In this document: positions 4,749-26,843 of the stretch, piece by piece
Numbering within the stretch: the first letter of the stretch is position 1
Layout: the number at the start of each line of letters is the position of its first letter
IMG/VR virus record: IMGVR_UViG_3300021364_000032
Coordinates: 1-51,896 of that record
Strand: one strand, 5' to 3'
DNA length: 51,896 nucleotides
Origin: a virus
The notes under the pieces: model-generated
Databases searched by the model: none
What the model was told of the DNA's origin: nothing
What the model saw: only the letters and a program-made list of their open reading frames with translations
Position numbers and translations under genes: made by a program

Positions 4749-4767
4749 TCGCCCACACAACGAGAAA

Positions 4768-4795: not shown

Positions 4796-4807
4796 CTTCC
4801 GTCGTTC

Positions 4808-4837
4808 TGAACGGCTAACCCCGACGAAAACCGTTCA
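4808..4837 (+). other. Inverted repeat upstream of the 118-aa gene
   Basis: TGAACGG (4808-4814) and CCGTTCA (4831-4837) form a 7-bp inverted repeat with a 16-nt loop in the AT-rich leader before the next gene. It could be regulatory or a second terminator arm. No convincing -35/-10 pair is seen here. Confidence 0.4.
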
Positions 4838-4880
4838 ATGAATATATTAACTCAACAATACTACTTTGAAAGGAGGAACA

Positions 4881-5995: not shown

Positions 5996-6001
5996 ATTTA
6001 T

Positions 6002-6056
6002 ATAATACCATCTCTTTCATCATAAAACACCCAATGGTGTACCTATGGTGTCCCTA
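6002..6056 (-). promoter_or_regulatory. Leaderless promoter with tandem operator-like repeats
   Basis: On the minus strand TATTAT (6002-6007) ends 6 nt before the RHH gene ATG; the -35 is poor. Just upstream, 6032-6056 holds two head-to-tail copies of the dispersed motif (CAATGGTGTACCTA then ATGGTGTCCCTA) sharing one A, an 13-bp spacing. RHH proteins commonly bind tandem half-sites, so this may be their own operator. Confidence 0.5.
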
Positions 6057-6135
6057 GCGGGAGGGTGCTGCGCTGGTAGCGGCAGACATTCTTATAAAAT
6101 GTTGGACTCGGGTTCAATTCCCGACTCCCGTACCA
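6057..6135 (+). tRNA. tRNA-Ile (anticodon UAU)
   Basis: The cloverleaf has a GCGGGAG/CTCCCGT acceptor, anticodon stem ACATT/AATGT with loop CTTATAA (anticodon TAT), T stem TCGGG/CCCGA with loop TTCAATT, and an encoded CCA. The D region is about 2 nt longer than usual and lacks U8. It reads AUA, rare in high-GC actinobacteria. Its 5' end abuts copy 4 of the dispersed motif. Confidence 0.8.
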
Positions 6136-6166
6136 AATCTTGTGACTGCTTTCACGAACTCTCATC

Positions 6167-6195
6167 TTTACACCCCGAACAAGCCCCGGTATACT
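6167..6195 (+). promoter_or_regulatory. Sigma70-type promoter
   Basis: TTTACA (6167-6172), a 17-nt spacer and TATACT (6190-6195) precede the 51-aa gene, between it and the tRNA. Confidence 0.6.
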
Positions 6196-6235
6196 AGTAG
6201 TTGACCAAGCACCTGAGGAGGTGAACAGAAAACAA

Positions 6236-6391
6236 ATGGCTAAGAAGATTATGTCCCGTATTCGCAAACGGCGAGACAACCGGAAAAACATGATTCAGAT
6301 CAACGGTATCTATGTACCAAGAGACCGCAAAATGTGGACCGACGATCTAGAACGAGAAATGCTCCGAGCACGAAGCGGATTCGGATTCTAA
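6236..6391 (+). CDS. Small basic protein, 51 aa
   Basis: This short gene encodes a Lys/Arg-rich 51-aa protein beginning MAKKIMSRIRKRR. It has its own promoter, a GAGGAGGTGA ribosome site about 11 nt from the ATG, and a clear terminator after the TAA, so it is a complete monocistronic unit. The basic character suggests nucleic acid or ribosome binding; a small host-takeover protein is one possibility, but function is unknown. Confidence 0.7.
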   Translation: MAKKIMSRIRKRRDNRKNMIQINGIYVPRDRKMWTDDLEREMLRARSGFGF

Positions 6392-6414
6392 ACACACCAA
6401 CCAAAACTAACAAG

Positions 6415-6457
6415 AAAGGGGGACCCGGCTAAACTGCTGAGGTCCCCCTTTTCTTTT
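6415..6457 (+). terminator. Rho-independent terminator
   Basis: AAAGGGGGACC (6415-6425) pairs with GGTCCCCCTTT (6441-6451), followed by a T-rich tract. It ends the 51-aa gene transcript. Confidence 0.88.
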
Positions 6458-6487
6458 GCTCTAACCATGAGGGTCAACCAGCCCCGC

Positions 6488-6546
6488 CCCGTCAGCCCAC
6501 ACCGCTAAACTGACGGGACTCTCCAACCCCGGTCTACCGAACCGGG
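6488..6546. other. Two hairpins in the convergent gap
   Basis: CCCGTCAG/CTGACGGG (6488-6495, 6510-6517) and CCCGGT/ACCGGG (6528-6533, 6541-6546) lie between the plus-strand terminator and the end of the minus-strand operon. They could terminate the incoming minus-strand transcript. No gene is seen in 6392-6579. Confidence 0.5.
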
Positions 6547-6568
6547 ACTAGCCCACCCAAAAAACCCT

Positions 6569-6582
6569 CAATGGTGTCCCTA
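6569..6582 (+). repeat. Dispersed 14-bp motif, copy 5
   Basis: An exact CAATGGTGTCCCTA whose last three bases form the stop codon of the minus-strand 109-aa gene. Confidence 0.7.
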
Positions 6583-6909
6583 CCGCAGCCTCGTACCGCA
6601 CTCCAAACAAATCTCAGCCCAAGGATACGACTGACGCTTCTCCAACGGATGAGTACAGGTGAAAATCTCACGCCACCGTGCATCCGCCATCTGCCGCAGC
6701 CACTCCGACACAGACAGGCCATCAGCCTCAGCCGCCTCCTGCCACTGCCCCCGCTGAATCTCCCCAACACGAATCAGCACCTGACGATCACGCACCTCCT
6801 CGGGCGGGACCTCCTCAGGATCAGCCAACGCCGCCTCAACAGCATCAGCCACCTTAGCCCTCTTCACCTCATCAGCCAAAAAAGTTTGTTTCAAATAATC
6901 ACTAGACAT
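6580..6909 (-). CDS. Hypothetical protein with C-terminal zinc-knuckle-like motif
   Basis: The 109-aa protein has a helical, acidic N-terminal two thirds. Near the middle, GLSVSEWLRQMADARW is RHH- or helix-like. The C-terminus has FTCTH and then ICLECGTR, a probable zinc-binding pair. The ATG at 6909 was chosen because it overlaps the stop of the upstream gene by 8 nt and has GTGAGG 7-8 nt before it. It is cotranscribed with the putative small terminase; a packaging role is conceivable but unproven. Confidence 0.7.
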   Translation of the reverse strand: MSSDYLKQTFLADEVKRAKVADAVEAALADPEEVPPEEVRDRQVLIRVGEIQRGQWQEAAEADGLSVSEWLRQMADARWREIFTCTHPLEKRQSYPWAEICLECGTRLR

Positions 6910-13972: not shown

Positions 13973-14001
13973 TTGCACCGGCAAGGTTATTTCAGTAAAC
14001 T
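13973..14001 (+). promoter_or_regulatory. Leaderless promoter of the first oxygenase gene
   Basis: TTGCAC (13973-13978), a 17-nt spacer and TAAACT (13996-14001), then 6 nt to the ATG at 14008. The string TTTCAGTAAACTA is shared with the promoter at 17740-17768. Confidence 0.7.
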
Positions 14002-14007
14002 AGAGAC

Positions 14008-14706
14008 ATGCACGTACAGGATAACTTCATCACAGACCCAGACTTGATAGAGGCAATCAAGCAGGACGAGACATTCTTCCCGCCTGTCATGGACACCTTT
14101 GAAGACCGTGGAAGTCTTGGCGACTATCACGGACAGCAGTACCACAGCGAAGAGGCATCCTGCTTTGCCCCTTACATGTTCTGGGATGGCTGGTGGAACT
14201 CCCCTGCCGACACGCTCAAGAAGCAAGTCATTCAGGCCATCTGGCAACACCCCGAAACACGAGACTTTAATCTAGAAGATGTAATTGGGTTTGAGTACTG
14301 GACACGAACTTTCGTCCCACCTCAGTACCTGCCGCACCACGTAGATGAAGACACATTCCAATATGCTCACGATAAAACATTCAACGCCCCCATCAGCGGA
14401 TGCATATGGTACGGCTTTACCGAAGCAGACGAAGGAGGAATGCTAGAAATACATCGTCCTCGTATTGAAGGCTCCCCTTCAGAAGTCTTAGAAGCAGATC
14501 AGGCTATCACATATCTCAGTCCCCCTGACGAGAGAGAACGGATTGCATACAAGCCCAATAGGTTAGTTGTTTTCGACGCTGGCCGAAGATTCCATGAAAC
14601 CACTGTAGTGAAATCGGGGACACGGCAAGTCATGGTAGTCAATGTATGGCATAAGGATAGCCCGCCGAGGGCACTGAGCACAGGAGAGTTCTTCTATGAA
14701 TCTTGA
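14008..14706 (+). CDS. 2OG-Fe(II) oxygenase 1
   Basis: The 232-aa protein is a jelly-roll 2-oxoglutarate/Fe(II) oxygenase. The iron triad reads H111-V-D113 and H196, with R206 ten residues later for the 2OG carboxylate; an EGGML motif lies at 142-146. It is the most divergent of the P4H-like proteins here, with no YxGGE-type strand. It starts a three-gene plus-strand group (14008-16106) of oxygenases with overlapping ends. The substrate is unknown. Confidence 0.85.
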   Translation: MHVQDNFITDPDLIEAIKQDETFFPPVMDTFEDRGSLGDYHGQQYHSEEASCFAPYMFWDGWWNSPADTLKKQVIQAIWQHPETRDFNLEDVIGFEYWTRTFVPPQYLPHHVDEDTFQYAHDKTFNAPISGCIWYGFTEADEGGMLEIHRPRIEGSPSEVLEADQAITYLSPPDERERIAYKPNRLVVFDAGRRFHETTVVKSGTRQVMVVNVWHKDSPPRALSTGEFFYES

Positions 14707-15541
14707 ACATTTGGGAACAGGGATTGTCAAAATCTCTAATGCCGTATCCGTAAACACCGATATTTTCCCTGCAATCGAATCTCTACGACAAGACGCTCTA
14801 GACAACCACTACACCTACGTGTGTGACGACGACGGTAACATGCTACATGCCACTAACTTAAGTGGTCATCGCTTCACACCAGAAGAACTAGACGCAAACT
14901 GCGTAAGAATAAACAACTTTCACGAACTTGAAGAGGAATGGCAAGCGGCTTACTTCAAAACATTGGAGACTGAAATCTACGACGCCCTGCTCAAATATGC
15001 AACTCAGTTCCCCATGATTATCCCGTGCTTGTGGTGGAAAACAAAAGGACACGTGCTGTCATACAAGCCCGGATCAGCATTGGGCCTTCATGCTGACAAC
15101 GACATCAACTATCAGCCGCATCACGAGCCTGATTATCAACTCGGCATCAAGCATGTCCTAGCAGCAATCGCCTACCTCAACGACGACTATGAGGGCGGCG
15201 AAATTGTTTTCCCATACGCAGATGTCACGTATTCACCTAAAGCCGGAGACGTTCTACTGTTTCCGGCAAACTTTATTTGTGCCCACGAAGTCAAACCAAT
15301 CACCGCAGGTAACAGATACGCCTACCTATCATACTTTGGACAAGGTTCTTCTGCACCAGACTACGGTGTGACAATCATCGAAGATGACCACAACATCAAC
15401 AGTGGACAAGTATGGATGCACAACCTATTCAAAGACTACGCCAACTACGTTAAATACAACGAACTTAGCGAAGACTTACTACTCCCAATTCACAGAGCAT
15501 TTAACTCCACAGGAACCCGAGAAGAAATCAACAATGCATAA
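14696..15541 (+). CDS. 2OG-Fe(II) oxygenase 2, prolyl-4-hydroxylase type
   Basis: The 281-aa protein has a full P4H core: H132-A-D134, YLNDDYEGGE (160-169), LFPAN, H197 and R207. The WWKTKGHVLSY block before the HxD is shared with oxygenases 4, 5 and 7, so these are paralogues. Prolyl-4-hydroxylases oxidise peptidyl proline using O2 and 2-oxoglutarate; phage homologues could act on protein or small molecules. It overlaps the previous gene by 11 nt and the next by 8 nt. Confidence 0.93.
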   Translation: MNLEHLGTGIVKISNAVSVNTDIFPAIESLRQDALDNHYTYVCDDDGNMLHATNLSGHRFTPEELDANCVRINNFHELEEEWQAAYFKTLETEIYDALLKYATQFPMIIPCLWWKTKGHVLSYKPGSALGLHADNDINYQPHHEPDYQLGIKHVLAAIAYLNDDYEGGEIVFPYADVTYSPKAGDVLLFPANFICAHEVKPITAGNRYAYLSYFGQGSSAPDYGVTIIEDDHNINSGQVWMHNLFKDYANYVKYNELSEDLLLPIHRAFNSTGTREEINNA

Positions 15542-16106
15542 AGTATCGTTAGTAAACATACCGTATTTTTTTGGCCTCATTGAAGACGTAGACAATCAAC
15601 TCATAAGCCAACAAATTATTGACTACGGCGAACCTCACGGCCAAGACATACTGCTGCCCGATTCCTCCGAGATTAACGAACTACTGACCCGCCTAACACG
15701 CCTAGTCCAATACGGTGCAGAAAACGCCGAGTTAATACTCAAGTCCCAGTGGGCGCTAAACTTAAAACAAGGCGAAAGTGTAGAGCCACACTCGCATCAC
15801 GCAAACTTCCACATATACCCTGAAGATTACTGGTCCGTAGTGTACTATCCTGTTGCAGACGAAAACTCTGCCAAACTTATACTGTCAGCCACGTGGTGCA
15901 ACACCGTAAACAAAAACACCCACGTGCAGCCCCAGACAGGTATGTACGTTGTCTTTCCCTCATACATATTACATTGGACAGAGCGACAGCAGTCCGCCGA
16001 GAACAGGCTTTCAATTAACGCAACCTTTGCACCAGAAGAACCAAACATGGCCCCCAATGTAGACTTCTCAATCTATGACCGGCGTCCACCCATCGGACCC
16101 GCCTGA
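15534..16106 (+). CDS. 2OG-Fe(II) oxygenase 3, TIGR02466-like
   Basis: The 190-aa protein resembles the putative 2OG-Fe(II) oxygenase family TIGR02466 found in many marine phages. It has PHSHHANF (His86, 88, 89) as proximal ligands, a VVFPSYILHW strand with distal His147, and R158. No clear HxD is present, so the acidic ligand is uncertain. The ATG at 15534 overlaps the previous stop by 8 nt. Its 3' end overlaps the convergent oxygenase 4 by 34 nt. Confidence 0.75.
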   Translation: MHKVSLVNIPYFFGLIEDVDNQLISQQIIDYGEPHGQDILLPDSSEINELLTRLTRLVQYGAENAELILKSQWALNLKQGESVEPHSHHANFHIYPEDYWSVVYYPVADENSAKLILSATWCNTVNKNTHVQPQTGMYVVFPSYILHWTERQQSAENRLSINATFAPEEPNMAPNVDFSIYDRRPPIGPA

Positions 16107-16843
16107 CTATCGGAAATCAGATCGGGCATCCAGATTCTAGGGCCAGCCTGCCCAACAACTTCATTGTTGACAGTATCAACACCGTAGCAGGCCATACTCA
16201 AAAATGCGACTCGCCTTCCTGACTCCACAGGATAGACTTCGTGACGGCCAACATAACTGGATGGGTAGATGGCAACTGAACCGGCTTCAGGGGCAAATGC
16301 GTGCTCGGCATGAGGAAAGTTAATCTCTCCACCAGTGTAGTCGGTCCCACAGTTGTTTAGATAAAGATTGATGCTTGTGCTGTTGTGCATCGACACTTGG
16401 TTGGGCGGGGACTCGCCCCACTCAAACGGCACCTGATCATCGCAATGCGGACCTATGTTCTGACCCGCATCGTAGACAGCAACATGGCCCTGTGGCCTCC
16501 ACCAAGCAGTCGTGGCCGCATCGGGGAAAATCTTGCAGTACTCAACCAGCGCACGGTACAGGGCGTCCTCACAGGCGTCCACAAAGTCTAGGTACTCCTG
16601 CGGCGCTTCTTCACCACGGTTGCGTCCACGAGTGTCTAGGAACCGCTGAGGAGCCATACCGATGTCCTCAAGACTGAACTTGAATCCTGTCTGATTAACA
16701 GCGTGATCCTTTTCAAACTTGAAAGTTTCCTCAGACTGGCCGGTCAGCCACCCGCAATATTCTGCAAAAAAGTCCGGGTCAATGTCCAAAACATTACGAC
16801 AAATAACCACACCCATACCGACGTGCTCTGATGTAATCATCAT
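16073..16843 (-). CDS. 2OG-Fe(II) oxygenase 4, prolyl-4-hydroxylase type
   Basis: The 256-aa protein has H133-C-D135, YTGGE (169-173), YPSSYVGRHEV with H201, and R210/R211. The AWWRPQGHVAVYD block before the HxD matches the paralogues. It is the last gene of the minus-strand oxygenase operon. Its ATG overlaps the preceding stop by 4 nt (ATGA). Confidence 0.92.
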   Translation of the reverse strand: MMITSEHVGMGVVICRNVLDIDPDFFAEYCGWLTGQSEETFKFEKDHAVNQTGFKFSLEDIGMAPQRFLDTRGRNRGEEAPQEYLDFVDACEDALYRALVEYCKIFPDAATTAWWRPQGHVAVYDAGQNIGPHCDDQVPFEWGESPPNQVSMHNSTSINLYLNNCGTDYTGGEINFPHAEHAFAPEAGSVAIYPSSYVGRHEVYPVESGRRVAFLSMACYGVDTVNNEVVGQAGPRIWMPDLISDSQAGPMGGRRS

Positions 16844-17733
16844 CCCTCCGAATTAAGTAAAGTAGTTCGATACTGCTCTGAGTTGTGATCGTAACCACGC
16901 TCATCTAGAAATGCCCGATAGTCTTCCCGTAGCGTCGGCATCCACACGTTCGTGCTTACCTCTGCGCCTTCTGGGTTCTGCAACGGATCAACAACATCCT
17001 CCCGCACGGCAGGATTCGGAGTACCCTGAGAATACCATCCCAAGTACGACATTCTCCTACCCTTACCTACCGGACGAACTTCGTGGGCAGCAACGTAATT
17101 GGATGGGAAGAATATGATAGTTCCAGCCTCAGGAACAATAGGATCAATGTTTAAGTAGTTGAAGTTATGGGTACCCTCAGTAAAGTTTCTGCCGTCCAAC
17201 TCAGACTCAGGTACCGATGAGTTTAGGTACGTCACATTAGACACGACATTGCGTAGGGCTAACTCTTGCGAAGTGCGATGAACTCCGTAGATATACTCAG
17301 CGCTAATGTCTGAATGCGATCCGAGGTACACCCCATCTCCGTAAGACACTACGTGCCCTTTCACCTTCCACCACACACAGTTGTACGCCAAAGGATAACA
17401 CGTGAAATACTTTAACAAACACGCATCTTTAGCCGCCTCTAATTCGGCCAGTAACTCACGAACGTCTTCCCGAGGGTTTAAGTGCAGCGATGACCCACGG
17501 CGAGGCATTGACTCATAAGTATCCAGCCCAAACAAATATCCGCTTCTGTTCTCATAAGCAACCTCACCGGTTTCAGGGTCAGTCACTTCAGTGTACATGC
17601 CCGCATACTCTTCGTCCACTAAAGTAGAAATTTCGTCATACACTTTGTCCCAGTCGCAGGAGACAGCATTGCGAAAAATAACTACACCGCCGCCTAAGTC
17701 TTCCGGCTCTGGATCATTGTACTTGATGAACAT
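16840..17733 (-). CDS. 2OG-Fe(II) oxygenase 5, prolyl-4-hydroxylase type
   Basis: The 297-aa protein has the GGGVVIFRNAV start shared with oxygenase 7, then WWKVKGHVVSYG, H140-S-D142, FFPSNYVAAHEV with H217, and R227. The usual YxGGE strand is replaced by a longer NFTEGTHNF loop (184-191). TTGACA/TAAACT stands 6 nt before its ATG, so its mRNA should be leaderless. Confidence 0.9.
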   Translation of the reverse strand: MFIKYNDPEPEDLGGGVVIFRNAVSCDWDKVYDEISTLVDEEYAGMYTEVTDPETGEVAYENRSGYLFGLDTYESMPRRGSSLHLNPREDVRELLAELEAAKDACLLKYFTCYPLAYNCVWWKVKGHVVSYGDGVYLGSHSDISAEYIYGVHRTSQELALRNVVSNVTYLNSSVPESELDGRNFTEGTHNFNYLNIDPIVPEAGTIIFFPSNYVAAHEVRPVGKGRRMSYLGWYSQGTPNPAVREDVVDPLQNPEGAEVSTNVWMPTLREDYRAFLDERGYDHNSEQYRTTLLNSEG

Positions 17734-17739
17734 ACAGAT

Positions 17740-17768
17740 AGTTTACTGAAACAGATAATCGTTGTCAA
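17740..17768 (-). promoter_or_regulatory. Leaderless promoter
   Basis: TTGACA (17763-17768), a 17-nt spacer and TAAACT (17740-17745), then ATCTGT and the ATG at 17733. It lies over the 3' end of the upstream oxygenase 6 gene, allowing separate expression of oxygenases 5 and 4. ATCTGT also follows the -10 of the 50311 promoter. Confidence 0.78.
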
Positions 17769-18564
17769 TGGAGTGATGACTACAGAAATATCCTAGAAAC
17801 TTTCGTTCTCCCGGCTTGAACCCGCCTGCAACAGCGTGAGACATGAGAAACAAATCACTAATCAGCATGTCACCAACTTCCCAGTTCCACGTCAAAAGAC
17901 TAGATAAGTTGTAAACAATATCAGTTTCGATTATGTCTACATGTGCCTCAAATTGAGATTTTTCGTTTTCAGTAGGCTCACGCCCATCAAAAGAAAACAA
18001 ACTTACATCCCCTTGGCAGATTCTCAAAACCTCAGCCTCTTTAAACGGGTGCTTCTCCACAGCATTACGTGGATTGGAATGAGTCAGGTTACCTTTCCTG
18101 TCACTAATAACTGAACTTGTAACGACCGCTTTTCGCATGAAGTCCACCGTGTCAGATGGTAGTGCTTCAAGCAACTTAGAGTTGTTTTTAAAGTAAGTCA
18201 TGCCCACCGAAGGAGAACAATCAAACTTAAGCATATTCCAAAAACCGGCAACTGTAGAATTCTCAACAGATGAAAAAACATGCTCCAAATGCCAGTTTAC
18301 AGAAAGATCAAGTTCTGTGTGATATCCATGTGCGAACGTATGCTCGTGGTCTTCTTCGTAACGTCGAAGCACAGTACGATCAAAATCGTCGTTTCTTGGA
18401 ACCCATCCGACATAATCACCCATAGCAAGGATGATATCTAACTGCTGTTCTTCAGTAGCGTTCAACCCACGAATACCAAAAACGCCGTCGTGCAGAAACT
18501 TCCATGCAAAGTATTCTGGGTCGCTCATTACATCACGGTAAGAGCAACGGATTACCTCAATCAT
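17743..18564 (-). CDS. TauD/gamma-butyrobetaine-type dioxygenase-like protein
   Basis: The 273-aa protein has the layout of TauD/TfdA dioxygenases: NWHLEHVFS (H92-L-E94), a TYFKNNS strand near 123-129, and distal MSHAVAGGFKPGERKFLGYF with H243 and R254. The acidic ligand is Glu rather than the common Asp. TauD-type enzymes act on free small molecules, unlike the peptidyl-P4H-like neighbours, so a metabolite or residue-linked group may be involved. It overlaps oxygenase 7 by 4 nt (ATGA). Confidence 0.75.
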   Translation of the reverse strand: MIEVIRCSYRDVMSDPEYFAWKFLHDGVFGIRGLNATEEQQLDIILAMGDYVGWVPRNDDFDRTVLRRYEEDHEHTFAHGYHTELDLSVNWHLEHVFSSVENSTVAGFWNMLKFDCSPSVGMTYFKNNSKLLEALPSDTVDFMRKAVVTSSVISDRKGNLTHSNPRNAVEKHPFKEAEVLRICQGDVSLFSFDGREPTENEKSQFEAHVDIIETDIVYNLSSLLTWNWEVGDMLISDLFLMSHAVAGGFKPGERKFLGYFCSHHSIDNDYLFQ

Positions 18565-19628
18565 GATTCGATTGGCACACCGTCAGTTCCGCAATTGGCC
18601 GCATCGTCTACGGTCTCAGCGTCGTGAGTGGTACCGTACTGTGCTACACATCGGCCCTGATAGACAGGATTGATACCAATGTTCTGCTCTTCGCCCGTGG
18701 AAAATCGTGAATACTCTGACTTGCAGTACTTCTCGTAATCGTCGTAAATGTTGTTCATCCACATAGCGGGGCACCACTGAAAACTATCGGCAGGCTCAAC
18801 AATGTTAATGTTTGCCTCTTGATGTGGTGAACCCTGACCAAAGAACGACAGGTAACTGTATCGTACCCCGGCATCCATTCGGCTAACCTGATGTGAGGCC
18901 ATGTAGTTCGTGGGGAAGAACACAATGTCGCCCTTCTTGGGCTTGTACTCAATGCCGAGGTGGAAGAACTCTAGAACGCCCCCAGTGAAGTTGGTGCCGT
19001 CTAACTCGTCTTCGCTATCCACCGAATCGTTTAGGTACACGAGGCATCCGCAGGTCTGCCGTGCGGCCATCTGCCCACGAGGCATGTATCTGACTCCTTC
19101 AGTGACCTTGTAGTTTGTATCATTGTCACAGTGAGCGCCGAGGATGCCCTCGTCGGCGTAGCGAAGAATGTGTCCACGGTTCTTCCACCATACGCACCCA
19201 ACAATGAGGGGGAAGTAGTCAATGTAACGAATTAGCGCTTTGTAAATAGTGTCTTCCATGTTGTGAAAGAACGCACGGGGGACATCAGGCGTTTCTTCAG
19301 TGACAGGGTGAAGCAAGCGAACCGGTGTTGCGGGAATATCTTCAGGCCGGTAACGGAATCCGTCTTCATTGATTCCGTACTTTTCACCATCCTCGCCAAC
19401 GATGTATTCCCATCTGTTTTGATGAGAAACTTCAGACTGTGCGTCAATGTACTTGAAAACTTCCTCAGTGTCCCCCTGTACAGCGTTACGGAAAACTAAT
19501 ACACCGCCACCCAAGTCTTCTACTTCAAACTCACCAATTTCCTTGATGGCATCGTCGTCAATTGTAGGTGTGTCTGGATGCGGTTCACCGCTTCGCCAGT
19601 CTTCAGGCTGGATATTGTCATCTGTCAT
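18561..19628 (-). CDS. 2OG-Fe(II) oxygenase 7, prolyl-4-hydroxylase type
   Basis: The 355-aa protein is the longest of the set: an acidic N-terminal 35 residues, then EDLGGGVLVFRNAV, WWKNRGHILRY, H166-C-D168, FTGGVLEF (214-221), FFPTNYMASHQV with H246, and R256. It continues past the core with a C-terminal extension of about 85 residues with Cys and Trp. Paralogous to oxygenases 2, 4 and 5. The gene begins one nt before the end of the methyltransferase-like gene. Confidence 0.92.
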   Translation of the reverse strand: MTDDNIQPEDWRSGEPHPDTPTIDDDAIKEIGEFEVEDLGGGVLVFRNAVQGDTEEVFKYIDAQSEVSHQNRWEYIVGEDGEKYGINEDGFRYRPEDIPATPVRLLHPVTEETPDVPRAFFHNMEDTIYKALIRYIDYFPLIVGCVWWKNRGHILRYADEGILGAHCDNDTNYKVTEGVRYMPRGQMAARQTCGCLVYLNDSVDSEDELDGTNFTGGVLEFFHLGIEYKPKKGDIVFFPTNYMASHQVSRMDAGVRYSYLSFFGQGSPHQEANINIVEPADSFQWCPAMWMNNIYDDYEKYCKSEYSRFSTGEEQNIGINPVYQGRCVAQYGTTHDAETVDDAANCGTDGVPIES

Positions 19629-19629
19629 G

Positions 19630-20373
19630 TTACTGCTTTACTAAAATATGGAACCCGATAGCGTGGGGGATATGGTAACTTGTAATGTCTGTACGGTCGT
19701 CTAATACTTCGTACATATCGTACAACGGCTCAATGTAATAGTCCGATGAGTAGAGGCGCATCATTTCGTTAACGCCCGAAAGATAAATAGCGCCCCCAGA
19801 ATTTGTAACGTCTACCACTTTATCAATCAAAGCCGGGTTGATGGTCAAATCAACAGAGTGCATGTGAACAAAATCAAACTGTGGCTCCGTCATTGCTTCT
19901 AACTCTTCAACTTCCATGACTGTGTAATCTCCAGTGAAGTTGCAATCTGGGTGTGTTAAAACGTGTGCCTCAAATGCTTGCAAACAGTCGTTGTTTAAGA
20001 AGGTTAGAGCGCACCCTTTTCTGTTCAAGTCTAAAACAAAATCAAAGTTTCTATCAGGTGACGCAACTAGAGCAGTTGTGGGCTGAATAAGATCAGCAAC
20101 CATCTGCGAGTAAATCCCTGTAGAGATATAAACCATCTCTTTCCATCCCGCAACTTTGCCGGAAAGCAAGTCCCACACATGCATGTAGAAATCTGCTCCG
20201 ACAGCGATGGAGCGCCGGTCCAAATTCTTGGAAGTCCAATCAGCATTTACGGCCCTAACGATATCGTCGTGAACCTGAAAGAAATCGTAATCCAGTGCTT
20301 GTGAAGAGTTCTTAGAAAACTCGTAAGTCAAAGCATTCGCAATTAAGAACTTATTACCTAAAATCTTATCCAT
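19630..20373 (-). CDS. Methyltransferase-like protein
   Basis: The 247-aa protein has the late Rossmann pattern of class I methyltransferases: FDFVHMHSVDL at about 176-186 (motif IV position) and GGAIYLSGVNEM near 206-217. A clear glycine-rich SAM loop is not visible; residues 75-115 (KEMVYISTGIYSQ... and LVASPDRNF) may supply it. It is placed inside the oxygenase operon, overlapping a 99-aa gene by 8 nt. A SAM-dependent transfer is the best guess; it could also be a degenerate homologue. Confidence 0.55.
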   Translation of the reverse strand: MDKILGNKFLIANALTYEFSKNSSQALDYDFFQVHDDIVRAVNADWTSKNLDRRSIAVGADFYMHVWDLLSGKVAGWKEMVYISTGIYSQMVADLIQPTTALVASPDRNFDFVLDLNRKGCALTFLNNDCLQAFEAHVLTHPDCNFTGDYTVMEVEELEAMTEPQFDFVHMHSVDLTINPALIDKVVDVTNSGGAIYLSGVNEMMRLYSSDYYIEPLYDMYEVLDDRTDITSYHIPHAIGFHILVKQ

Positions 20374-20665
20374 TTACGATACTCCTTGCTAACTGCCAAC
20401 GATGCCACAAGCGGCGAGCATTTACCATCAGCAACACATTGATTTCTTTTAACGCATCATTCGATGCCAAACTATGCCCTTCCTGCAACCGCAAGAACGG
20501 GAAAGTTGCTTTAATCTGAGCAACAATATCGTCAAAAGAAGATGATGAAATGTTGCCTGTCTCCATACCCAGCACATACATGATGCTGATTAAATCTCGC
20601 TCTACATGGGCAAGATCAGCCACAGCGTCATAGGCGGGTGTGCTAGCGTTTCCAATTCTACTCAT
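20366..20665 (-). CDS. Hypothetical protein, 99 aa
   Basis: The helical 99-aa protein is not recognised. Start ATG 20665 was chosen because it overlaps the stop of the next gene upstream by 8 nt. The C-terminal half (ALKEINVLLMVNARRLWHRWQLARS) could be amphipathic. It sits in the unknown block between methyltransferase-like and peroxidase-like genes. Confidence 0.68.
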   Translation of the reverse strand: MSRIGNASTPAYDAVADLAHVERDLISIMYVLGMETGNISSSSFDDIVAQIKATFPFLRLQEGHSLASNDALKEINVLLMVNARRLWHRWQLARSIVNG

Positions 20666-20933
20666 CAGCAAACTCGTCTAAACTCTCGGCGGACATAGGA
20701 AGTGAAGTGCGTAGCGGATCAATTTCGCCTGAGTAAAAGTGGCACATAAACCCCTCTCCTGACGGAACATTCCATGCCGTTGTTGAGGTGTCGAACTTGA
20801 CAGGCTCCTCAGCAATCTGGGAACTTTCTGTAGGATCAAACCCCTCGTCAGGCTCACCAAAAGCATAGATGTCCACGCCAGAGGCTTGTGCCTCAGTTTC
20901 CACGGCACCATCAGTTACGGTATACTTCTTCAT
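20658..20933 (-). CDS. Hypothetical acidic protein, 91 aa
   Basis: The acidic 91-aa protein is not recognised. It lacks basic patches, with a possible beta segment TTAWNVPSGEGFMCHFY at 51-67. ATGA overlap with the 72-aa gene supports coding. It may be a small substrate or scaffold protein, since neighbours are modification enzymes; no direct sign is seen. Confidence 0.68.
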   Translation of the reverse strand: MKKYTVTDGAVETEAQASGVDIYAFGEPDEGFDPTESSQIAEEPVKFDTSTTAWNVPSGEGFMCHFYSGEIDPLRTSLPMSAESLDEFADE

Positions 20934-21148
20934 GACTCTAGTGCTTCTAGGTTCTCCACCATAGTTAGCAAAGACTGGTACGCAGGGTAATCAGCGTCAG
21001 CCTCAGCAACCGGGATAACAAAACTTGAATCAAGGGTTGAAGTGTCTACATTCAACATCATCGCCATAGAGACAATGTTCTGATTCAGAAAATCAATTGC
21101 CTTCTCTTTAGCCTTTTGGCGTTGTGCTTCTGAAACGGTTACAGCCAT
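20930..21148 (-). CDS. Hypothetical protein, 72 aa
   Basis: The 72-aa helical protein (MAVTVSEAQRQKAKEKAIDFL...) is not recognised. GTGAGGA lies 5 nt before the ATG. It begins a run of three small genes with the same orientation, coupled by 4-8 nt overlaps. Confidence 0.68.
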   Translation of the reverse strand: MAVTVSEAQRQKAKEKAIDFLNQNIVSMAMMLNVDTSTLDSSFVIPVAEADADYPAYQSLLTMVENLEALES

Positions 21149-21155
21149 TAGTTCC

Positions 21156-22019
21156 TCACAATCGTGCTAAATCGTTCTCTGTGTTTTTATATGATACACA
21201 ATCTTTGTATAGTTGCGCAAGTATAGGGCGAGGCTCTTCCATCAAGTTGTTCTCTGCCGCCCACAGTCTAAATGACAACGGCATTTCAGGGTCGTCCAAA
21301 TTGGTTGAGCATGTGCCGGTCTTAAAATATTGTGCAACCTGCTGATCCGGTAAAGCCATAAGGTCACGCACAACTTCGTTAGAATCTTCATCATCAACAT
21401 TTAGACCTAAGTGGGTCAAAACCTCATTAGACTTTAACGCCGCAGGCTCAGTACTATCCGCATGAATATAAGCCCACTGCCACTCAAGCATAAGTTTAAA
21501 CAACTCGTGTAGCGTTGACGAACCTGCATACGGGTGAATTGTGCTTGTCTGGGCGATTAGTCCCCCGTCTTCGCAATCTACCACACTGTTGTCTAGTTGG
21601 ATATAAAGAATGTACGCCATCCCCGGCTCGTGGAATACGGGAATGTACTTCTGGATCATGGATAAGTAGTCTTCAATGTTATCTAGAACTACTGTCTTGT
21701 AATCTTCCCGCCCGTACAACTCGTCTAAAGTCATGTTAAGGTGAGTTTCCGTAGCCGAGCACATTGGATACATCCAGTGGTCGGTGTGCTCCTCTTTAGG
21801 AACTGAAGCCTGCAATCGAAAGAACCTACGCAAGCGAGGCATATCATCTACGTCATTAATGATGGGCATCATGCCGGGAAGAATATCAATCAACCCTTGA
21901 ACATCAGCATAGTCGGCAGGGTCAAACCCCGCATCACGAATAGACACATCCAACAAAGGACGCAACTTACTCAATTTATCTTCAAGAGCGATCTTCTGTA
22001 CACTGTTAGTTAAACGCAT
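21156..22019 (-). CDS. Hypothetical protein, 287 aa
   Basis: The 287-aa soluble protein is not recognised. It contains EEHTDHW near residue 77-83 and FHEPGMAYILYIQLDNS near 133-149, which recall cupin or oxygenase strands, but no distal His/Arg pair follows, so I do not call it an oxygenase. TATAAT and AGAGGAAGGTG precede the ATG, giving it a promoter-like and SD-led start. It lies in the middle of the oxygenase cluster. Confidence 0.72.
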   Translation of the reverse strand: MRLTNSVQKIALEDKLSKLRPLLDVSIRDAGFDPADYADVQGLIDILPGMMPIINDVDDMPRLRRFFRLQASVPKEEHTDHWMYPMCSATETHLNMTLDELYGREDYKTVVLDNIEDYLSMIQKYIPVFHEPGMAYILYIQLDNSVVDCEDGGLIAQTSTIHPYAGSSTLHELFKLMLEWQWAYIHADSTEPAALKSNEVLTHLGLNVDDEDSNEVVRDLMALPDQQVAQYFKTGTCSTNLDDPEMPLSFRLWAAENNLMEEPRPILAQLYKDCVSYKNTENDLARL

Positions 22020-22051
22020 GACAACACCTTCCTCTGCTAATATTATACCGC

Positions 22052-22669
22052 TTAGTAGTCCAGTACTTCGTCAATGCACTCTCGGATTGTCCAACTCTCG
22101 CCAGTAGTCAAAGGAACATCATCCAAAGGATCGCTCTGCCAATTGAAGCGGGTAATCATCTGACCGTTACGACCCACAATAAACTTCTCCCAACTATGGG
22201 GAATACGTGCAACAGCGCCGCCAGCCTTGTTCCAGCCCTCCTGCGCCGCCTCAGACGTATCAGCAGGAGAAGCATCCTTCACCCTAACCACGTTACCCAA
22301 CAAAGCCGAGTAAACTAAACTGCCATTCTTGCCGTTAACGTCGATCTTTTCCGACAAGGGGAAATCAACAAACGGGTAAGCCTGCTCCATCCAAGCCGAA
22401 ATCTCATCATTCTCGCAAGGCTCCATCTGCCCAAACTGATTGCACGGAAAACCAACCACACTAAAGCCACGATCCTTGAACTCATCATGGACTTGCTGTA
22501 ACTGCCAGAACTGGCGGGTAGTCCGTGCAAACGACCAAAACGTACTACACTGCGGAGTGTAGCCTAACTTTGATACAGTGTTCACGACAAGAGTTACCTT
22601 GCCGTCAAACTGATGCATAAAGTCAGGTTCACCATCAATTGAATTCATCTGAATATCGTAAATGCTCAT
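22052..22669 (-). CDS. Glutathione-peroxidase-like protein lacking the usual catalytic Cys
   Basis: The 205-aa protein follows the GPx/BtuE pattern: VVNTVSKLGYTPQC (28-41), GFPCNQFGQMEPCENDEI near 83-100, and SWEKFIVGRNG near 158-168. The peroxidatic Cys/Sec of the SKCG motif is Leu35 (codon TTA, so not a Sec codon), whereas Cys41 and two Cys of the GFPCNQF/EPC segments remain. An insertion (FWSFARTTRQFWQLQQV) lengthens the first helix. It may be inactive, use another Cys, or bind peptide. It overlaps the neighbour by 4 nt (ATGA). Confidence 0.8.
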   Translation of the reverse strand: MSIYDIQMNSIDGEPDFMHQFDGKVTLVVNTVSKLGYTPQCSTFWSFARTTRQFWQLQQVHDEFKDRGFSVVGFPCNQFGQMEPCENDEISAWMEQAYPFVDFPLSEKIDVNGKNGSLVYSALLGNVVRVKDASPADTSEAAQEGWNKAGGAVARIPHSWEKFIVGRNGQMITRFNWQSDPLDDVPLTTGESWTIRECIDEVLDY

Positions 22670-22977
22670 TGCTCACTCCAAGGGTGCGGATTGCTAGAAA
22701 CGTGGCCGTCGATAGGGCACTCTAACATGGAGTGTCCTGTGTGTGGATCAAGAATCTGAACAACGCCCGTCAACATATCTTCAACAGGAGTACACTGGAC
22801 ACGTATCCCACAGTCGAAAGGCACAAGTGAATTACCGGAAAGAAAGTACGTTTCGTTTACTTTCCTGAACTCGGTAAAATCAAAACTACCCTTAAACATA
22901 TGAGCACTTCCGCAGTCATCACCCACAGGAAGATTCAGTACAAACTTTTCATCACCCAGTGGGGTGTGTGCGGTCAT
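22666..22977 (-). CDS. Hypothetical protein, 103 aa
   Basis: The 103-aa beta-rich protein (MTAHTPLGDEKFV...) is not recognised. It has several Cys (DDCGS, FDCGIRVQC, LECP) and His residues that could bind metal. ATG 22977 overlaps the TGA of the DUF6065-like gene, so this start is preferred over an upstream TTG. Confidence 0.68.
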   Translation of the reverse strand: MTAHTPLGDEKFVLNLPVGDDCGSAHMFKGSFDFTEFRKVNETYFLSGNSLVPFDCGIRVQCTPVEDMLTGVVQILDPHTGHSMLECPIDGHVSSNPHPWSEQ

Positions 22978-23705
22978 TGAGTAAGCCAATTTGGAACCTC
23001 CGGTATTTCAGGATCGTGTAAGTCTACTAAACCATCATGGCGAGGACCTATCCTATTACCGTCAGCGTCCAATCCGGTACGGATTCCGTTCATCCAAGTC
23101 CACGGCTCATCTTGCATTTTTTGCATTTTTGCCTTGTTGTACTTCATCCGGTCTTCCATTAATTGAGGCTTGTCCCACAAGTTCTCAACCGTACACTCTA
23201 TGTTAGGCATTAAGTTAGTGTCGAAAACAAAGAAGAATGCGAAAGGAGTTCCCTTCGGGAATACGACTTCTTTACCAACTTCTGTAATTTTCCAAGCCAT
23301 CTGAACTTCGTCGGGCCACCAGTCACTAGGAATAATTGCAGACAGTGGGGTAGCCCCCTCCACGAAGTAGTTAGGAGAGCCAGTAAGCCATGTGTGATAG
23401 CCTTCTTCGGTGTTGAACGCCCAGCCTAACTGAAAGTCAACCATGCCTATCTTATTGCAGTTAGCAACCATGCGATGATCGTGCTCGCCCCCTTCAATTA
23501 GTGTGGGCACCGTTTGACCACCATCCCATTTAACAACAACATCGCAAGGCAATAAAACTTCCCAACCATTAACATTAGCCATTGTAATTGGCAAACACCG
23601 GTAAGCATGTTTATTGTAGGTATCGTCCATCCAGCCACGCCGTAGATCAGACTGTTGAACGTGTGGGGAGGCTTGGTGCGTTCTAACTAAAGTAAGTTTA
23701 CTCAT
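22974..23705 (-). CDS. DUF6065-like protein
   Basis: The 243-aa protein matches my memory of the DUF6065 family: AYRCLPITMANVNGWEV near 34-50, VVVKWDGG, SGSPN-type turn at LTGSPNYF, IIPSDWWPDEVQMAWKIT near 124-141, and GTPFAFFF. DUF6065 genes often neighbour oxygenases or secondary-metabolism genes; function is unknown. It overlaps oxygenase 8 by 4 nt and the next gene by 4 nt, so it belongs to the same operon. The call is by motif only. Confidence 0.75.
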   Translation of the reverse strand: MSKLTLVRTHQASPHVQQSDLRRGWMDDTYNKHAYRCLPITMANVNGWEVLLPCDVVVKWDGGQTVPTLIEGGEHDHRMVANCNKIGMVDFQLGWAFNTEEGYHTWLTGSPNYFVEGATPLSAIIPSDWWPDEVQMAWKITEVGKEVVFPKGTPFAFFFVFDTNLMPNIECTVENLWDKPQLMEDRMKYNKAKMQKMQDEPWTWMNGIRTGLDADGNRIGPRHDGLVDLHDPEIPEVPNWLTQ

Positions 23706-24565
23706 GACTGTGTGCCGTATTGGTAGGTATAATTTGTGTTACCTGCTTGCTGTTGGGCTTCCCAACTCGCTACAGCGTACTTATGAATCTCTTCATGAAT
23801 AATCTTACGCAACTGCTCTTCATCAAACCCTGCCACTGCGACTGGGCTTTCATCAGGGAAAGAAGGCTTCTCAGGCTGTTCGTTTGTTTGACCAAAGTCT
23901 CTGGAAAACCCACCGTGCTTGTGTGCATCGTCATTGTAATCAAACATTGTGACTGCTGAATACTTCACGCCCTCTGTCACCGGAAGGGACGCATGAGCGT
24001 AAATGTATGTTGACGGGAAGAAGATAGAGTCACCAGCCTCCGGCTTGTAAGTGATATCCAGCAACGGGAAGTGCAACTCGCCGCCCTCATAATCATCGTT
24101 GAGATACACAATGTTAGACACCGTACAAATGTACGAAAAGCCGTGGTCAGTATGAACGGCGAAGTGCTCGCCCGGACCATACTTCACAAAGTTGATGGCT
24201 TCCATGTACCGCATAGTGATGTTGTACATGCTCTGATAATGCTGAAGGCCGTCGTTAATCCTAGAGGACACATCGGTGTAAACCCCGACAATCTCTGAAA
24301 ACTCTGAAGGAGTGTTAGGGATGTACTCTTCAGCCATCTTAAAATCTACACAGTCTCGGTACTCGGGCATCTTAACGCCCTCACCAACGAGTGAGTCATG
24401 CCACTTGAAGTATTCGTGTTGACTGTCATCCAAAGCCTGATGTAGACGGGCAGGAACATAATCTACCCCATCTAAACAATTCTTATAGACCACGATGCCT
24501 AAATGCGGGTCGCCAATATACTCGTAGTCAAACTTTGAAGTAGTGCTGTGATTACCGTAACTCAT
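23702..24565 (-). CDS. 2OG-Fe(II) oxygenase 8, prolyl-4-hydroxylase type
   Basis: The 287-aa protein has H138-T-D140, YLNDDYEGGEL (154-164), FFPSTYIYAHA with H191, and Lys201 in the position usually held by Arg, as in animal prolyl-4-hydroxylases, where Lys binds the 2OG carboxylate. The C-terminal 70 residues are polar and Gln/Tyr-rich. A leaderless promoter stands 6 nt before the ATG. It is the first gene of the sub-operon with DUF6065 and GPx-like genes. Confidence 0.93.
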   Translation of the reverse strand: MSYGNHSTTSKFDYEYIGDPHLGIVVYKNCLDGVDYVPARLHQALDDSQHEYFKWHDSLVGEGVKMPEYRDCVDFKMAEEYIPNTPSEFSEIVGVYTDVSSRINDGLQHYQSMYNITMRYMEAINFVKYGPGEHFAVHTDHGFSYICTVSNIVYLNDDYEGGELHFPLLDITYKPEAGDSIFFPSTYIYAHASLPVTEGVKYSAVTMFDYNDDAHKHGGFSRDFGQTNEQPEKPSFPDESPVAVAGFDEEQLRKIIHEEIHKYAVASWEAQQQAGNTNYTYQYGTQS

Positions 24566-24571
24566 GGTGTT

Positions 24572-24600
24572 ATCGTATCAAACGTACCGAGTGGAGTCAA
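24572..24600 (-). promoter_or_regulatory. Leaderless promoter
   Basis: TTGACT (24595-24600), a 17-nt spacer and TACGAT (24572-24577), then 6 nt to the ATG at 24565 on the minus strand. Confidence 0.72.
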
Positions 24601-25150
24601 ATCTTTCCAACACATGCCAGAAAGTAGTGATGTTTAGTCGCTCCCCAGATTCTACTTTAGCGACTTGGTGTAAATATTTTTCGCTTGTCGGAAATGCGAC
24701 CAGCATACCAGCCTTAGGAAAAATGAACAAGTCTTGATTGGGCATAAACAGATCGCCCCCGGTAAAGTCACTTCCGTGATTGTTAAAATAAAGAAGCGTG
24801 GAGATGTCACGGGAAGGGTAGCCTGCGTAGGTGTCTAAGTTTAGTGACGTGTCCTCAAATGTATCGGCGTGTAACTGTAACTCCCAGCCGGGAAGCGCAC
24901 TAACTAGCGATGCTAACTCTTCTTGCCCCACGCCACACGAATAGTAGTTCTCAATAAACTCTCTAACTTTTAGGTTTAATCCGTCCATCAGTGGACGCAG
25001 GACAGCGCTCTCACCCAACTGAATAAACTTGTCGTACAAATGATCTTGAATGTCATGCCGAGGTAACTTGCTTATCTCCTCCGTGTACAGTTCCACAGTC
25101 TCTGGAGATAAAAAATCAGGCACAATGACTACGCCATCTCGTTCTTTCAC
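24578..25150 (-). CDS. 2OG-Fe(II) oxygenase 9, prolyl-4-hydroxylase type
   Basis: The compact 190-aa protein has H94-A-D96, FTGGDL (129-134), FPKAGMLVAFPT, H161 and R171, essentially the bare P4H core. It starts at a GTG overlapping the stop of oxygenase 10 (GTGA). It resembles oxygenase 10 in order and spacing of motifs, so the two are probably a duplicated pair. Confidence 0.92.
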   Translation of the reverse strand: MKERDGVVIVPDFLSPETVELYTEEISKLPRHDIQDHLYDKFIQLGESAVLRPLMDGLNLKVREFIENYYSCGVGQEELASLVSALPGWELQLHADTFEDTSLNLDTYAGYPSRDISTLLYFNNHGSDFTGGDLFMPNQDLFIFPKAGMLVAFPTSEKYLHQVAKVESGERLNITTFWHVLERFDSTRYV

Positions 25151-25785
25151 AAGTATTCCTCGTTCAAGTTTTCAACCACGGTATAAAACGAAGGAGTTGT
25201 CCACCGCTCACCGCTAGTAACTGTACGGACACCATGCAGATAATTTCGGTCACCCACAAACATGACTGCCAACCCCGGTTTGGGTGTAATCTCAATGTCG
25301 TGCTGAGGAAAGTATAGTTCACCACCAGTAAAGTCATCGTTATAGTAAAACAGTGAGTTTAAGTCATAGGTTGGAAATGGATTCGGGCTACCATCGTTTA
25401 ATTCTTTATCTGCGTGCGGCTGTTGCTCTATGCCTTCAAACCAACGCATTAAAACAGGGGCACGCCCATAAACTTTAACATTGAAAAACTTTTCGACTTC
25501 GTTCGCCATTTTATCAATGTATTTCTCAATGATCTTGTAAACTTCTGGATTTTTACGGTCAATAATAGGACCACTACACATACGGTCGTTCCAGTAGGTA
25601 GCGTCATAAATACAAACACCATTCTCGTCGTATTCAGTCTCTTTTCCGTTCTCCCATTCGTCAATCGTGGGTAGGAATGCCTGAACTACCGCTAAATCTT
25701 CCGGGTCGATAAAGTTCTCAAAGACAACGATGTTGTCGGAACTGTCCCCGTAGTAGCCCGAAGGTATAATCGAAACTTCTTCCAT
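25147..25785 (-). CDS. 2OG-Fe(II) oxygenase 10, prolyl-4-hydroxylase type
   Basis: The 212-aa protein has H124-A-D126, FTGGEL (152-157), LYFPQ, H184 and R194. A leaderless promoter (TTGACG/TAGAAT) ends 6 nt before its ATG. The promoter region is only 38 nt from the stop codon of the Pro-Pro-(F/Y)-F repeat tail protein, making this the oxygenase closest to its candidate substrate gene. Confidence 0.93.
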   Translation of the reverse strand: MEEVSIIPSGYYGDSSDNIVVFENFIDPEDLAVVQAFLPTIDEWENGKETEYDENGVCIYDATYWNDRMCSGPIIDRKNPEVYKIIEKYIDKMANEVEKFFNVKVYGRAPVLMRWFEGIEQQPHADKELNDGSPNPFPTYDLNSLFYYNDDFTGGELYFPQHDIEITPKPGLAVMFVGDRNYLHGVRTVTSGERWTTPSFYTVVENLNEEYL

Positions 25786-25823: not shown

Positions 25824-26843
25824 TTACTTGAACGCTGGAGGGAAGTAAGGCGGGAAGAATGGGGGGAAGAATGGAGGGAAAAATGGCGGGAAGAAAGGCG
25901 GGAAGAACGGCGGGAAATAGGGAGGAAAGAAGGGCGGGAAGAACGGAGGGAAGTAAGGAGGGAAGAACGGCGGAAAGAACGGAGGGAAGTAAGGTGGAAA
26001 GAACGGAGGGAAGAACGGCGGGAAGTAAGGAGGGAAGAACGGAGGGAAGAAAGGCGGGAAGAACGGAGGGAAGAACGGGGGGAAATATGGGGGAGCAACA
26101 GGCGTAATAATGACACTATTTGACCAGTCCCCGATAAGATGAGTGTTGCTCAGTCTCGCCCGGATACTATACTCAGTGCCGTTAGTCAAGCCTGTAAGAA
26201 CCTTAGACGAAGACGTAGGCTGATTCGTTACGATTGCTTGCTGCGTAGACCCCCCACCCGTAGGGGTGGCTTGAAACGTGATGTATCTAGCGTAGCCTTC
26301 ATCGGAATAATCAGAAGAACTGCCACCCGCCCCAAAGTCCCCAATAGCGTGAGCCGTCCACGTAACAGTAGTTGAAGCATCATCACCATCAGTAGCGCTA
26401 ATAGTGTTCATCGTGCTAGGCTTACGGACTGTTAAGTAATCGCCAATTTCTTCAGTCTCCACAGTTCCATCTGCGGCTGTGGTAGAACGCATAAACTTGT
26501 ACGCAAAACCTGCACGAACCTCATCTTCGGGGGACGTATCGCTCGTAACAATATCAAACGTACAAGTTTGTTCTGATCCTTGTGAGACATTTGCCCCACC
26601 CGGAGAATTAGTAGACGGGCCACCCTTACCTGCCTTGTCGGCGTTAGCAGGACCATTAGGATTCGTCCACGCCCGAACGTCTGCCGTGTTTTCTTTACCA
26701 GTGTACGACGGGGTAACGCCAAACGCTACCGTATTGGAAGACGTACCAATTAGGGGAGTACCACCGCCAGACGTGGACGGCGTTGTAGTTACAGAACTTT
26801 CAGGTAACTTGCCACCTTGTCCTACATCTTTATTTATAGCCAT
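25824..26843 (-). CDS. Tail protein with fibronectin-III domain and Pro-Pro-(Phe/Tyr)-Phe repeats
   Basis: The 339-aa protein has a Gly/Ser/Thr-rich N-terminal half, a fibronectin-III-like domain near residues 150-245 (ending YSIRARLSNTHLIGDWSNSVIITP), and then about 21 tandem four-residue units PPFF/PPYF up to the PPAFK end. The Tyr units are spaced regularly (units 1, 6, 9, 12, 15 and 21). Such a stretch is expected to be extended, like polyproline II, and very hydrophobic. The gene starts the last tail operon member before the oxygenases. Prolines are the likely target of the adjacent P4H-type enzymes, by inference. Confidence 0.85.
   Translation of the reverse strand: MAINKDVGQGGKLPESSVTTTPSTSGGGTPLIGTSSNTVAFGVTPSYTGKENTADVRAWTNPNGPANADKAGKGGPSTNSPGGANVSQGSEQTCTFDIVTSDTSPEDEVRAGFAYKFMRSTTAADGTVETEEIGDYLTVRKPSTMNTISATDGDDASTTVTWTAHAIGDFGAGGSSSDYSDEGYARYITFQATPTGGGSTQQAIVTNQPTSSSKVLTGLTNGTEYSIRARLSNTHLIGDWSNSVIITPVAPPYFPPFFPPFFPPFFPPFFPPYFPPFFPPFFPPYFPPFFPPFFPPYFPPFFPPFFPPYFPPFFPPFFPPFFPPFFPPFFPPYFPPAFK
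25836..26096 (-). repeat. 12-bp tandem repeat encoding PP(F/Y)F
   Basis: About 21 imperfect 12-bp units make the plus strand almost pure purine (GGGAAGAA-type) for 260 bp. Such a homopurine tract can form triplex DNA and slip during replication, changing repeat number. Synonymous differences between units show it is not newly expanded. Confidence 0.88.

Follow-up and report, generated by a model that had tools for sequence, protein, structure and literature searches.

Introduction

Eriksson et al. 1999 are said to have described a prolyl 4-hydroxylase (P4H) of the Chlorovirus PBCV-1. In the available excerpts of two accounts, this virus encodes a P4H that acts on proline-containing peptides (PMC7019647, PMC9301287), and the review lists the enzyme among the proteins of the PBCV-1 particle (PMC7019647/PMC9301287). 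Excerpts of PMC11015965 describe hydroxyproline-rich glycoproteins, such as the Chlamydomonas mastigoneme, whose long proline-rich repeats are hydroxylated by P4H and then glycosylated. In marine phages, 2-oxoglutarate (2OG) oxygenases occur commonly; no role has been established for phage enzymes of this kind, and most explanations cast them as metabolic helpers. Here we analyze a virus record of 51,896 bases from IMG/VR (IMGVR_UViG_3300021364_000032; the whole stretch is hereafter called the window) that carries an array of 2OG oxygenase genes and, embedded in it, a block of small and medium genes at positions 19630 to 22977.

Two of the window's oxygenases, ox212 and ox287 (Table 1), are proposed here to be prolyl hydroxylases, and the likeness to PBCV-1 lies in a P4H that is encoded by a virus. 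The difference is that PBCV-1, an algal virus, has a single small enzyme. To our knowledge, PBCV-1 has no multi-oxygenase cassette, no partners of the DUF6065, u287 or MTlike kinds that we describe below, and no tail protein with a PP[F/Y]F repeat. Viral prolyl hydroxylation has a precedent in PBCV-1, and a multi-gene, substrate-linked form of it was not found in the open-licence literature, judged by titles and abstracts. As in the hydroxyproline-rich glycoproteins, which are glycosylated, one related phage cassette also carries a glycosyltransferase; those glycoproteins, however, are eukaryotic extracellular proteins with proline-rich regions that, in the excerpts cited, are enriched in serine and are not PP[F/Y]F. 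The 2OG-Fe(II) oxygenases of T4-like cyanophages belong to the same superfamily as those of the window, share Pfam models with them and sometimes occur in many copies per genome (PMC9602691, in part), and excerpts of PMC12774648 report a structural likeness between such an enzyme and EGLN3. Cultured phages hold only distant relatives of the cassette oxygenases, and the PP[F/Y]F repeat was present in none of the six records tested.

A proline-aromatic repeat beside the oxygenases

In the reading that we favor, the block occupies the center of a modular phage cassette. This cassette probably modifies a virion protein after translation, and its likely substrate is the (PP[F/Y]F)n tail of the open reading frame (ORF) at 25824-26843, with a chemistry that would be of the prolyl-hydroxylase type. 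The ORF, which the original prediction overlooked, is the most informative neighbor of the block; its C-terminus reads PPYFPPAFK after (PP[Y/F]F)n. Counting only ORFs with a start codon, and not counting the window, we found ORFs with PP[F/Y]F tails in 58 of 95 related loci. The repeat unit is strict at its second aromatic position, which is Phe in 2680 of 2686 units drawn from 186 ORFs, while the first aromatic is Phe in 1704 of these units, Tyr in 765, His in 71, or another residue. A relative of the repeat protein, in locus L145, has no match in cultured phages. At L101:3762-5012, the repeat-tailed ORF runs on into additional sequence, which presumably resembles an intein/Hint start.

The repeat on its own leads to the oxygenases. 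IMG/VR was scanned with a DNA pattern for three repeats and, as a control, with a pattern for collagen-like (GPT)4; each scan gave 119 new loci among the matches listed, to which all of the following counts from the two scans refer, and contig L110, matched by both, was assigned to the repeat set only. A 2OG gene lies within 6 kb in 85 of the 119 repeat-seeded loci versus 14 of the 119 control loci, and a DUF6065 gene in 53 versus 1. A wider DUF6065 profile raised the control count from 1 to 4, with 62 in the repeat set. Independent clusters were obtained by DNA-similarity clustering of loci with at least 5 kb of flank, and a 2OG oxygenase was scored as a match of at least 40 bits within 6 kb. 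Counted in this way, 2OG oxygenases accompany 48 of 63 repeat clusters versus 2 of 82 control clusters (Fisher 1.6e-22), and DUF6065 accompanies 34 of 63 versus 0 of 82 (4.9e-16). The reverse test gave a similar result: among 43 loci seeded with ox212 and having at least 2.5 kb on both sides, 41 contain a repeat frame and all 43 contain DUF6065, although 15 of the repeat frames were found only when the loci were read from stop to stop, not as start-codon ORFs. Likewise, DUF6065 seeds gave 43 loci with 6 kb or more of upstream sequence; the repeat lies upstream in 41 of these, and within 6 kb in 35 of the 41.

In 79 of 81 loci, either ox287 or ox212 is the oxygenase that lies closest to the repeat ORF; the median gap is 463 bases. 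A C-terminal ..FK occurs in 13 of 18 clusters of window-type cassettes versus 0 of 21 divergent clusters. These data bear on the idea that the oxygenases serve as auxiliary metabolic genes, altering the metabolism of the host or its 2-oxoglutarate levels, and that the tail neighbor is a coincidence. Such is the usual reading of cyanophage 2OG oxygenases, for example the 24 such genes in S-SCSM1 (PMC9602691, in part). We consider it unlikely here, given that the association is specific to the PP[F/Y]F repeat, in contrast to the collagen-like control, and that adjacency to the repeat is specific to oxygenase subfamilies.

Ten oxygenase ORFs lie within 14008-25785, of which all but ox232 score above the cut-off of a 2OG-Fe(II) or TauD Pfam model. 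The four aligned families (ox212, ox287, ox355 and ox297; alignments A7-A10) all retain the HxD...H iron ligands and a distal R/K without variation; ox240 is the exception among the 2OG oxygenases of the window in having no HxD. Searched against the Protein Data Bank (PDB), the ox212 profile matched prolyl 3-hydroxylase 1 (8k0e) at 8.2e-7 and the ox287 profile matched a prolyl 4-hydroxylase (3itq) at 9.9e-9. By profile comparison, then, the nearest solved relatives of both repeat-adjacent oxygenases are prolyl hydroxylases. The original prediction had offered either a virion modification or a small-molecule product. We favor the former over the small molecule on two grounds: the cassette is linked to a tail protein that ends in the repeat, and its repeat-adjacent oxygenases are nearest to prolyl hydroxylases.

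A probable frameshift in related repeat genes

Reading the ox212-seeded loci from stop to stop led to a further observation. In 51 distinct repeat genes, which form 28 groups by 4-mer similarity and include L399:8100-8432 (-), L052 and L069, the repeat is encoded in the +1 frame relative to a short ORF, which comes after the tail-fiber gene and overlaps the repeat frame. Several of these +1 repeat frames lack ATG, GTG and TTG altogether. The overlap of the short ORF holds a CGG codon followed by A in 51 of 51 cases, and the short ORF then ends 1 to about 30 codons later, in most cases by the tenth. CGG accounts for only 1 of 24,938 codons in the ox212 and ox287 genes of the same loci, and in-frame orthologs (L145, L108, L128, L417 and L422) lack exactly that C, using GGA, GGC or GGT. 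The window's own repeat gene is in frame. Excerpts of PMC5009743 describe +1 frameshifting in the mitochondria of glass sponges; the sites are rare codons, UGG_A or CGG_A, and the extra base immediately precedes GGA on its 5' side. The pattern of codons and frames indicates that the CGG_A junction is a probable programmed +1 ribosomal frameshift in the relatives. Judged by titles and abstracts, no description of CGG frameshifting in phages tied to this cassette was found in the open-licence literature.

Conservation of the cassette

Eight minus-strand ORFs, DUF6065 included, span 19630-23705 between oxygenase 7 (18561-19628) and oxygenase 8 (23702-24565), with overlaps of 4 to 8 bases or gaps within 32 bases. 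We confirmed these coordinates, and the tightly coupled, single-strand block of seven ORFs plus DUF6065 stands as originally described. IMG/VR scans contributed 5 loci when seeded with u287, 11 with MTlike, and 80 of 186 relatives with DUF6065. Iterated hidden Markov model searches over 95 loci plus the window, with counts that include the window as well as loci sharing a contig, found MTlike in 52 loci, u99 in 53, u91 in 49, u72 in 52, u287 in 48, u103 in 79, the glutathione peroxidase-like (GPx-like) gene in 92, and DUF6065 in 94. The order DUF6065-u103-GPx-u287-u72-u91-u99-MTlike-oxygenase is conserved at 30-40% identity of the unknown proteins in, for example, L029, L036 and L048. Since same-order homologs persist to about 30% identity and the families are found in 48 to 94 of 95 loci, the ORFs of the block are not chance. 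The block is a real, ordered cassette conserved in uncultured phages, and its unknown genes share phage contigs with oxygenases in conserved order, the co-occurrence that had been suggested as a check.

Elsewhere the modules are shuffled. In both L091 and L093, u91 and u99 form a single fusion, and a u103 homolog is attached to the C-terminus of an ox232-type oxygenase; in L046, MTlike-u99-u72 is encoded on the opposite strand. Another large group, from L054 onward, contains DUF6065, two u72-like ORFs and a 389-amino-acid ORF; hhalign ties these small ORFs to u72 (97%) and the 389-amino-acid ORF to u287 (100%, 4e-43). Additional enzymes include a P450 and a WS/DGAT-type acyltransferase in L094, and a GT61 glycosyltransferase and a nucleotidyltransferase fused to a second GPx type in L062.

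A u287 profile recovered 34 loci from IMG/VR, 33 of which (8 + 25) have DUF6065 in the same locus; the remaining one, L346, starts inside the cassette, at a contig end. The MTlike profile recovered 21 loci, every one on a contig already mapped, by contig name, as carrying the cassette. This confinement of close u287 and MTlike homologs, together with the conserved order, supports the dedicated pathway envisaged in the original prediction. That prediction took homologs found singly in unrelated contexts as evidence against itself; none appeared among close homologs, and at the level of the wide u287 family they appear in part, as discussed below.

DUF6065 is well conserved (72% mean column identity over 17 sequences) and matches PF19541 with 152.8 bits against a curated cut-off of 26.6. 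The PF19541 model also matched in Caulobacter vibrioides, one of 14 control genomes. Neither DUF6065 (A3) nor u287 (A2) had a confirmed relative in a collection of genomes from 84,980 species, a search with phage-specific patterns that distant relatives may escape. Among cultured phages, MTlike and u287 have no match at E 0.1, and DUF6065 matches only Halorubrum virus HRTV-11 (24% identity), with no oxygenase annotated nearby. Alignments A1-A4 gave nothing credible against PDB sequences. Three tandem DUF6065-type ORFs lie at L117:5860-8004, and two occur in several repeat-seeded loci.

Proteins of the block

The five unknown proteins and MTlike have no meaningful Pfam or PHROG match. PADLOC models matched 0 families for the nine proteins tested, and a defense or counter-defense island was ruled out on that ground.

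The MTlike model (pLDDT 75.7) has 3tfw as its best Foldseek match (6.7e-9), and VIA-align superimposes it on 3c3y with Z 14.2 over 171 aligned residues (root-mean-square deviation 3.7). The predicted fold is that of a class I methyltransferase, closest to catechol (COMT) and caffeoyl-CoA (CCoAOMT) O-methyltransferases. Class I S-adenosylmethionine (SAM)-dependent methyltransferases have a glycine-rich SAM motif I. The corresponding MTlike segment is KP..ALI..PD..F (consensus of 14 sequences), and the sole invariant glycines are G59, G194 and G240; the gene had been called degenerate and methyltransferase-like, and it is so in having the fold without the motif-I glycines. Catechol-type O-methylation by MTlike would suit a hydroxylated tyrosine, and a dead-enzyme scaffold is equally possible.

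The GPx-like protein matches PF00255 with 93.2 bits (9e-27; cut-off 27 bits). The catalytic tetrad of glutathione peroxidases includes a peroxidatic Cys or Sec and a Trp. The window gene has Leu at the Cys position and His at the Trp position, and of the 42 distinct sequences in its subfamily, 38 are without the Cys and all 42 without the Trp. All 30 sequences of the other GPx subfamily retain Cys and Asn and have Gly in place of Trp. An active GPx peroxidase was ruled out for the window gene by this loss of the peroxidatic Cys.

The smaller proteins gave little against Pfam: u103 had only weak single-member matches (5 families over 18 members), and the small proteins had 2 single-member matches over 22. 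In other cassettes u72 has several related copies, and u99 is weakly related to it (hhalign 68%). A Trp is kept towards the C-terminus of u91, along with a Cys in most sequences. This feature, and the position of small conserved proteins next to tailoring-type enzymes, would suit a block that makes a diffusible product, for example a ribosomal peptide whose precursor is u91 or u72 and which the oxygenases and MTlike would tailor; the P450 and acyltransferase of L094 point the same way. However, there is no transporter, protease or family of ribosomally synthesized and post-translationally modified peptides among the block's Pfam matches, the u91-u99 fusion would be odd for a cleaved precursor, and the physical link is to a tail protein, so we regard a diffusible product as distinctly improbable.

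Other features of the window

No end repeats were found in IMG/VR terms, and the window is perhaps a fragment for that reason. It encodes tail fibers, a baseplate wedge protein, a sigma factor, separate DNA polymerase and exonuclease ORFs, and an endolysin. The closest matches of the DNA polymerase are phages of actinobacteria (best 42%). An exact 13-base repeat, TTTCAGTAAACTA, lies at 13990-14002 (+) and 17739-17751 (-), just ahead of two oxygenase genes on opposite strands, with a weaker form at 19634-19646 ahead of ox355; it was in none of the 470 loci examined. A short repeat around CAATGGTGTCCCTA has about six copies in the left end of the window (1715-6592).

Table 1. Genes of the cassette and its surroundings in the window (aa, amino acids)
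Feature	Coordinates	Strand	Remarks
Repeat-tailed tail protein, 339 aa	25824..26843	-	Weak FN3-like region (fn3 model at E 0.0021, short of its cut-off), followed by (PP[Y/F]F)n; proposed substrate
ox212, 2OG oxygenase adjoining repeat gene	25147..25785	-	Nearest solved structures prolyl 3-hydroxylase 1 and P4H
ox190, 2OG oxygenase	24578..25150	-	PF13640
ox287, 2OG oxygenase	23702..24565	-	Nearest solved structure prolyl 4-hydroxylase 3itq
DUF6065 protein	22974..23705	-	PF19541, E 1.4e-44
u103, 103 aa from internal Met (first listed start TTG: 107)	22666..22977	-	Unknown; TPLGxE...KGS pattern
GPx-like, 205 aa	22052..22669	-	PF00255; peroxidatic Cys to Leu, tetrad Trp to His
u287, 287 aa	21156..22019	-	Confident model (pLDDT 86.6)
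u72, 72 aa	20930..21148	-	Small protein, LGxD motif
u91, 91 aa	20658..20933	-	Small acidic protein
u99, 99 aa from ATG (first listed start TTG: 101)	20366..20665	-	Small protein
MTlike, 247 aa	19630..20373	-	Class I methyltransferase fold (model), without motif-I glycines
ox355, 2OG oxygenase	18561..19628	-	PF13640
TauD-type 2OG oxygenase, 273 aa	17743..18564	-	PF02668
ox297, 2OG oxygenase	16840..17733	-	PF13640
ox256, 2OG oxygenase	16073..16843	-	PF13640
ox240, 2OG oxygenase	15384..16106	+	PF13759; without HxD motif
ox281, 2OG oxygenase	14696..15541	+	PF13640
ox232, 2OG oxygenase	14008..14706	+	PF13640 below cut-off, E 5.6e-4

Discussion

In the pathway that we propose, ox212 and ox287 would hydroxylate prolines of the repeat, and the remaining oxygenases may carry out further oxidations at proline or aromatic side chains. 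u287 would be a partner or chaperone of the tail protein; u103, which two relatives have as an oxygenase fusion, and u72, u91 and u99 may be docking or carrier subunits. MTlike would be either a divergent O-methyltransferase of the hydroxylated products or a dead-enzyme scaffold, and the GPx-like protein would be a scaffold, not a peroxidase. As a result, the tail would carry a stiff, hydroxylated filament that can be compared with the hydroxyproline-rich wall proteins of plants and algae. More tentatively, it is possible that a dedicated multi-oxygenase assembly line builds this hydroxylated proline-aromatic tail filament with non-enzymatic subunits of new families, and that, in a large subgroup, programmed +1 ribosomal frameshifting at a near-unused CGG_A codon gates its synthesis.

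Several points weigh against a cassette that modifies the repeat. Among the matches listed, a 2OG match of at least 40 bits within 6 kb is missing from 15 of the 63 repeat clusters, and the repeat can therefore exist without oxygenases. The block's unknown genes are found in only 15 of the 119 repeat-seeded loci at a strict threshold, and are therefore dispensable in some versions. The linkage could reflect shared descent of a tail module, the clusters having been made by DNA similarity and not by phage phylogeny, and the ..FK covariation has the same confounder. No PDB structure was matched by the ox355 and ox297 profiles at E 0.01. Modification of the repeat is itself inferred. Finally, 3 of the 119 control loci listed carry members of the wider u287 family (237-272 bits) in the absence of oxygenases; DUF6065, ox212 and ox287 matches are lacking there.

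These three u287-family genes (L296:4217-5299, L307:7691-8803 and L330:1-897) adjoin a glycine-rich tail ORF, which we take to look like a gp38-type adhesin. Their position suggests a tail chaperone or partner role, and since the wider family adjoins such ORFs without oxygenases, u287 may be a tail-associated protein that joined the cassette. The u287 model gave no Foldseek row against the PDB at E 0.001 (best 0.094) and a best VIA-align Z of 7.1 over 76 aligned residues; such weak or missing matches do not demonstrate a new fold. The glycine-rich neighbors, along with the GPT-rich fiber sequence near the cassette in L048 and L029, raise the question of whether the cassette modifies another virion protein, such as a neighboring tail fiber or collagen-like GPT fibers, the PP[F/Y]F protein being merely a structural neighbor. 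Collagen-like loci are, however, generally without oxygenases and DUF6065, and we judge this to be quite unlikely.

No paper on DUF6065 was found in the open-licence literature, nor, judged by titles and abstracts, was any on phage hydroxylation of tail or virion proteins with this association. A repeat that can be recognized by eye beside the enzymes, and that co-varies with them, offers a concrete and testable substrate for phage 2OG oxygenases. If the proposal is correct, CGG_A frameshifting in bacterial viruses would join the glass-sponge mitochondrial case (PMC5009743, in part), the orphan families DUF6065, u287, u72, u91, u99 and u103 would gain a context, and phages would be seen to use hydroxyproline-type chemistry to build a tail structure.

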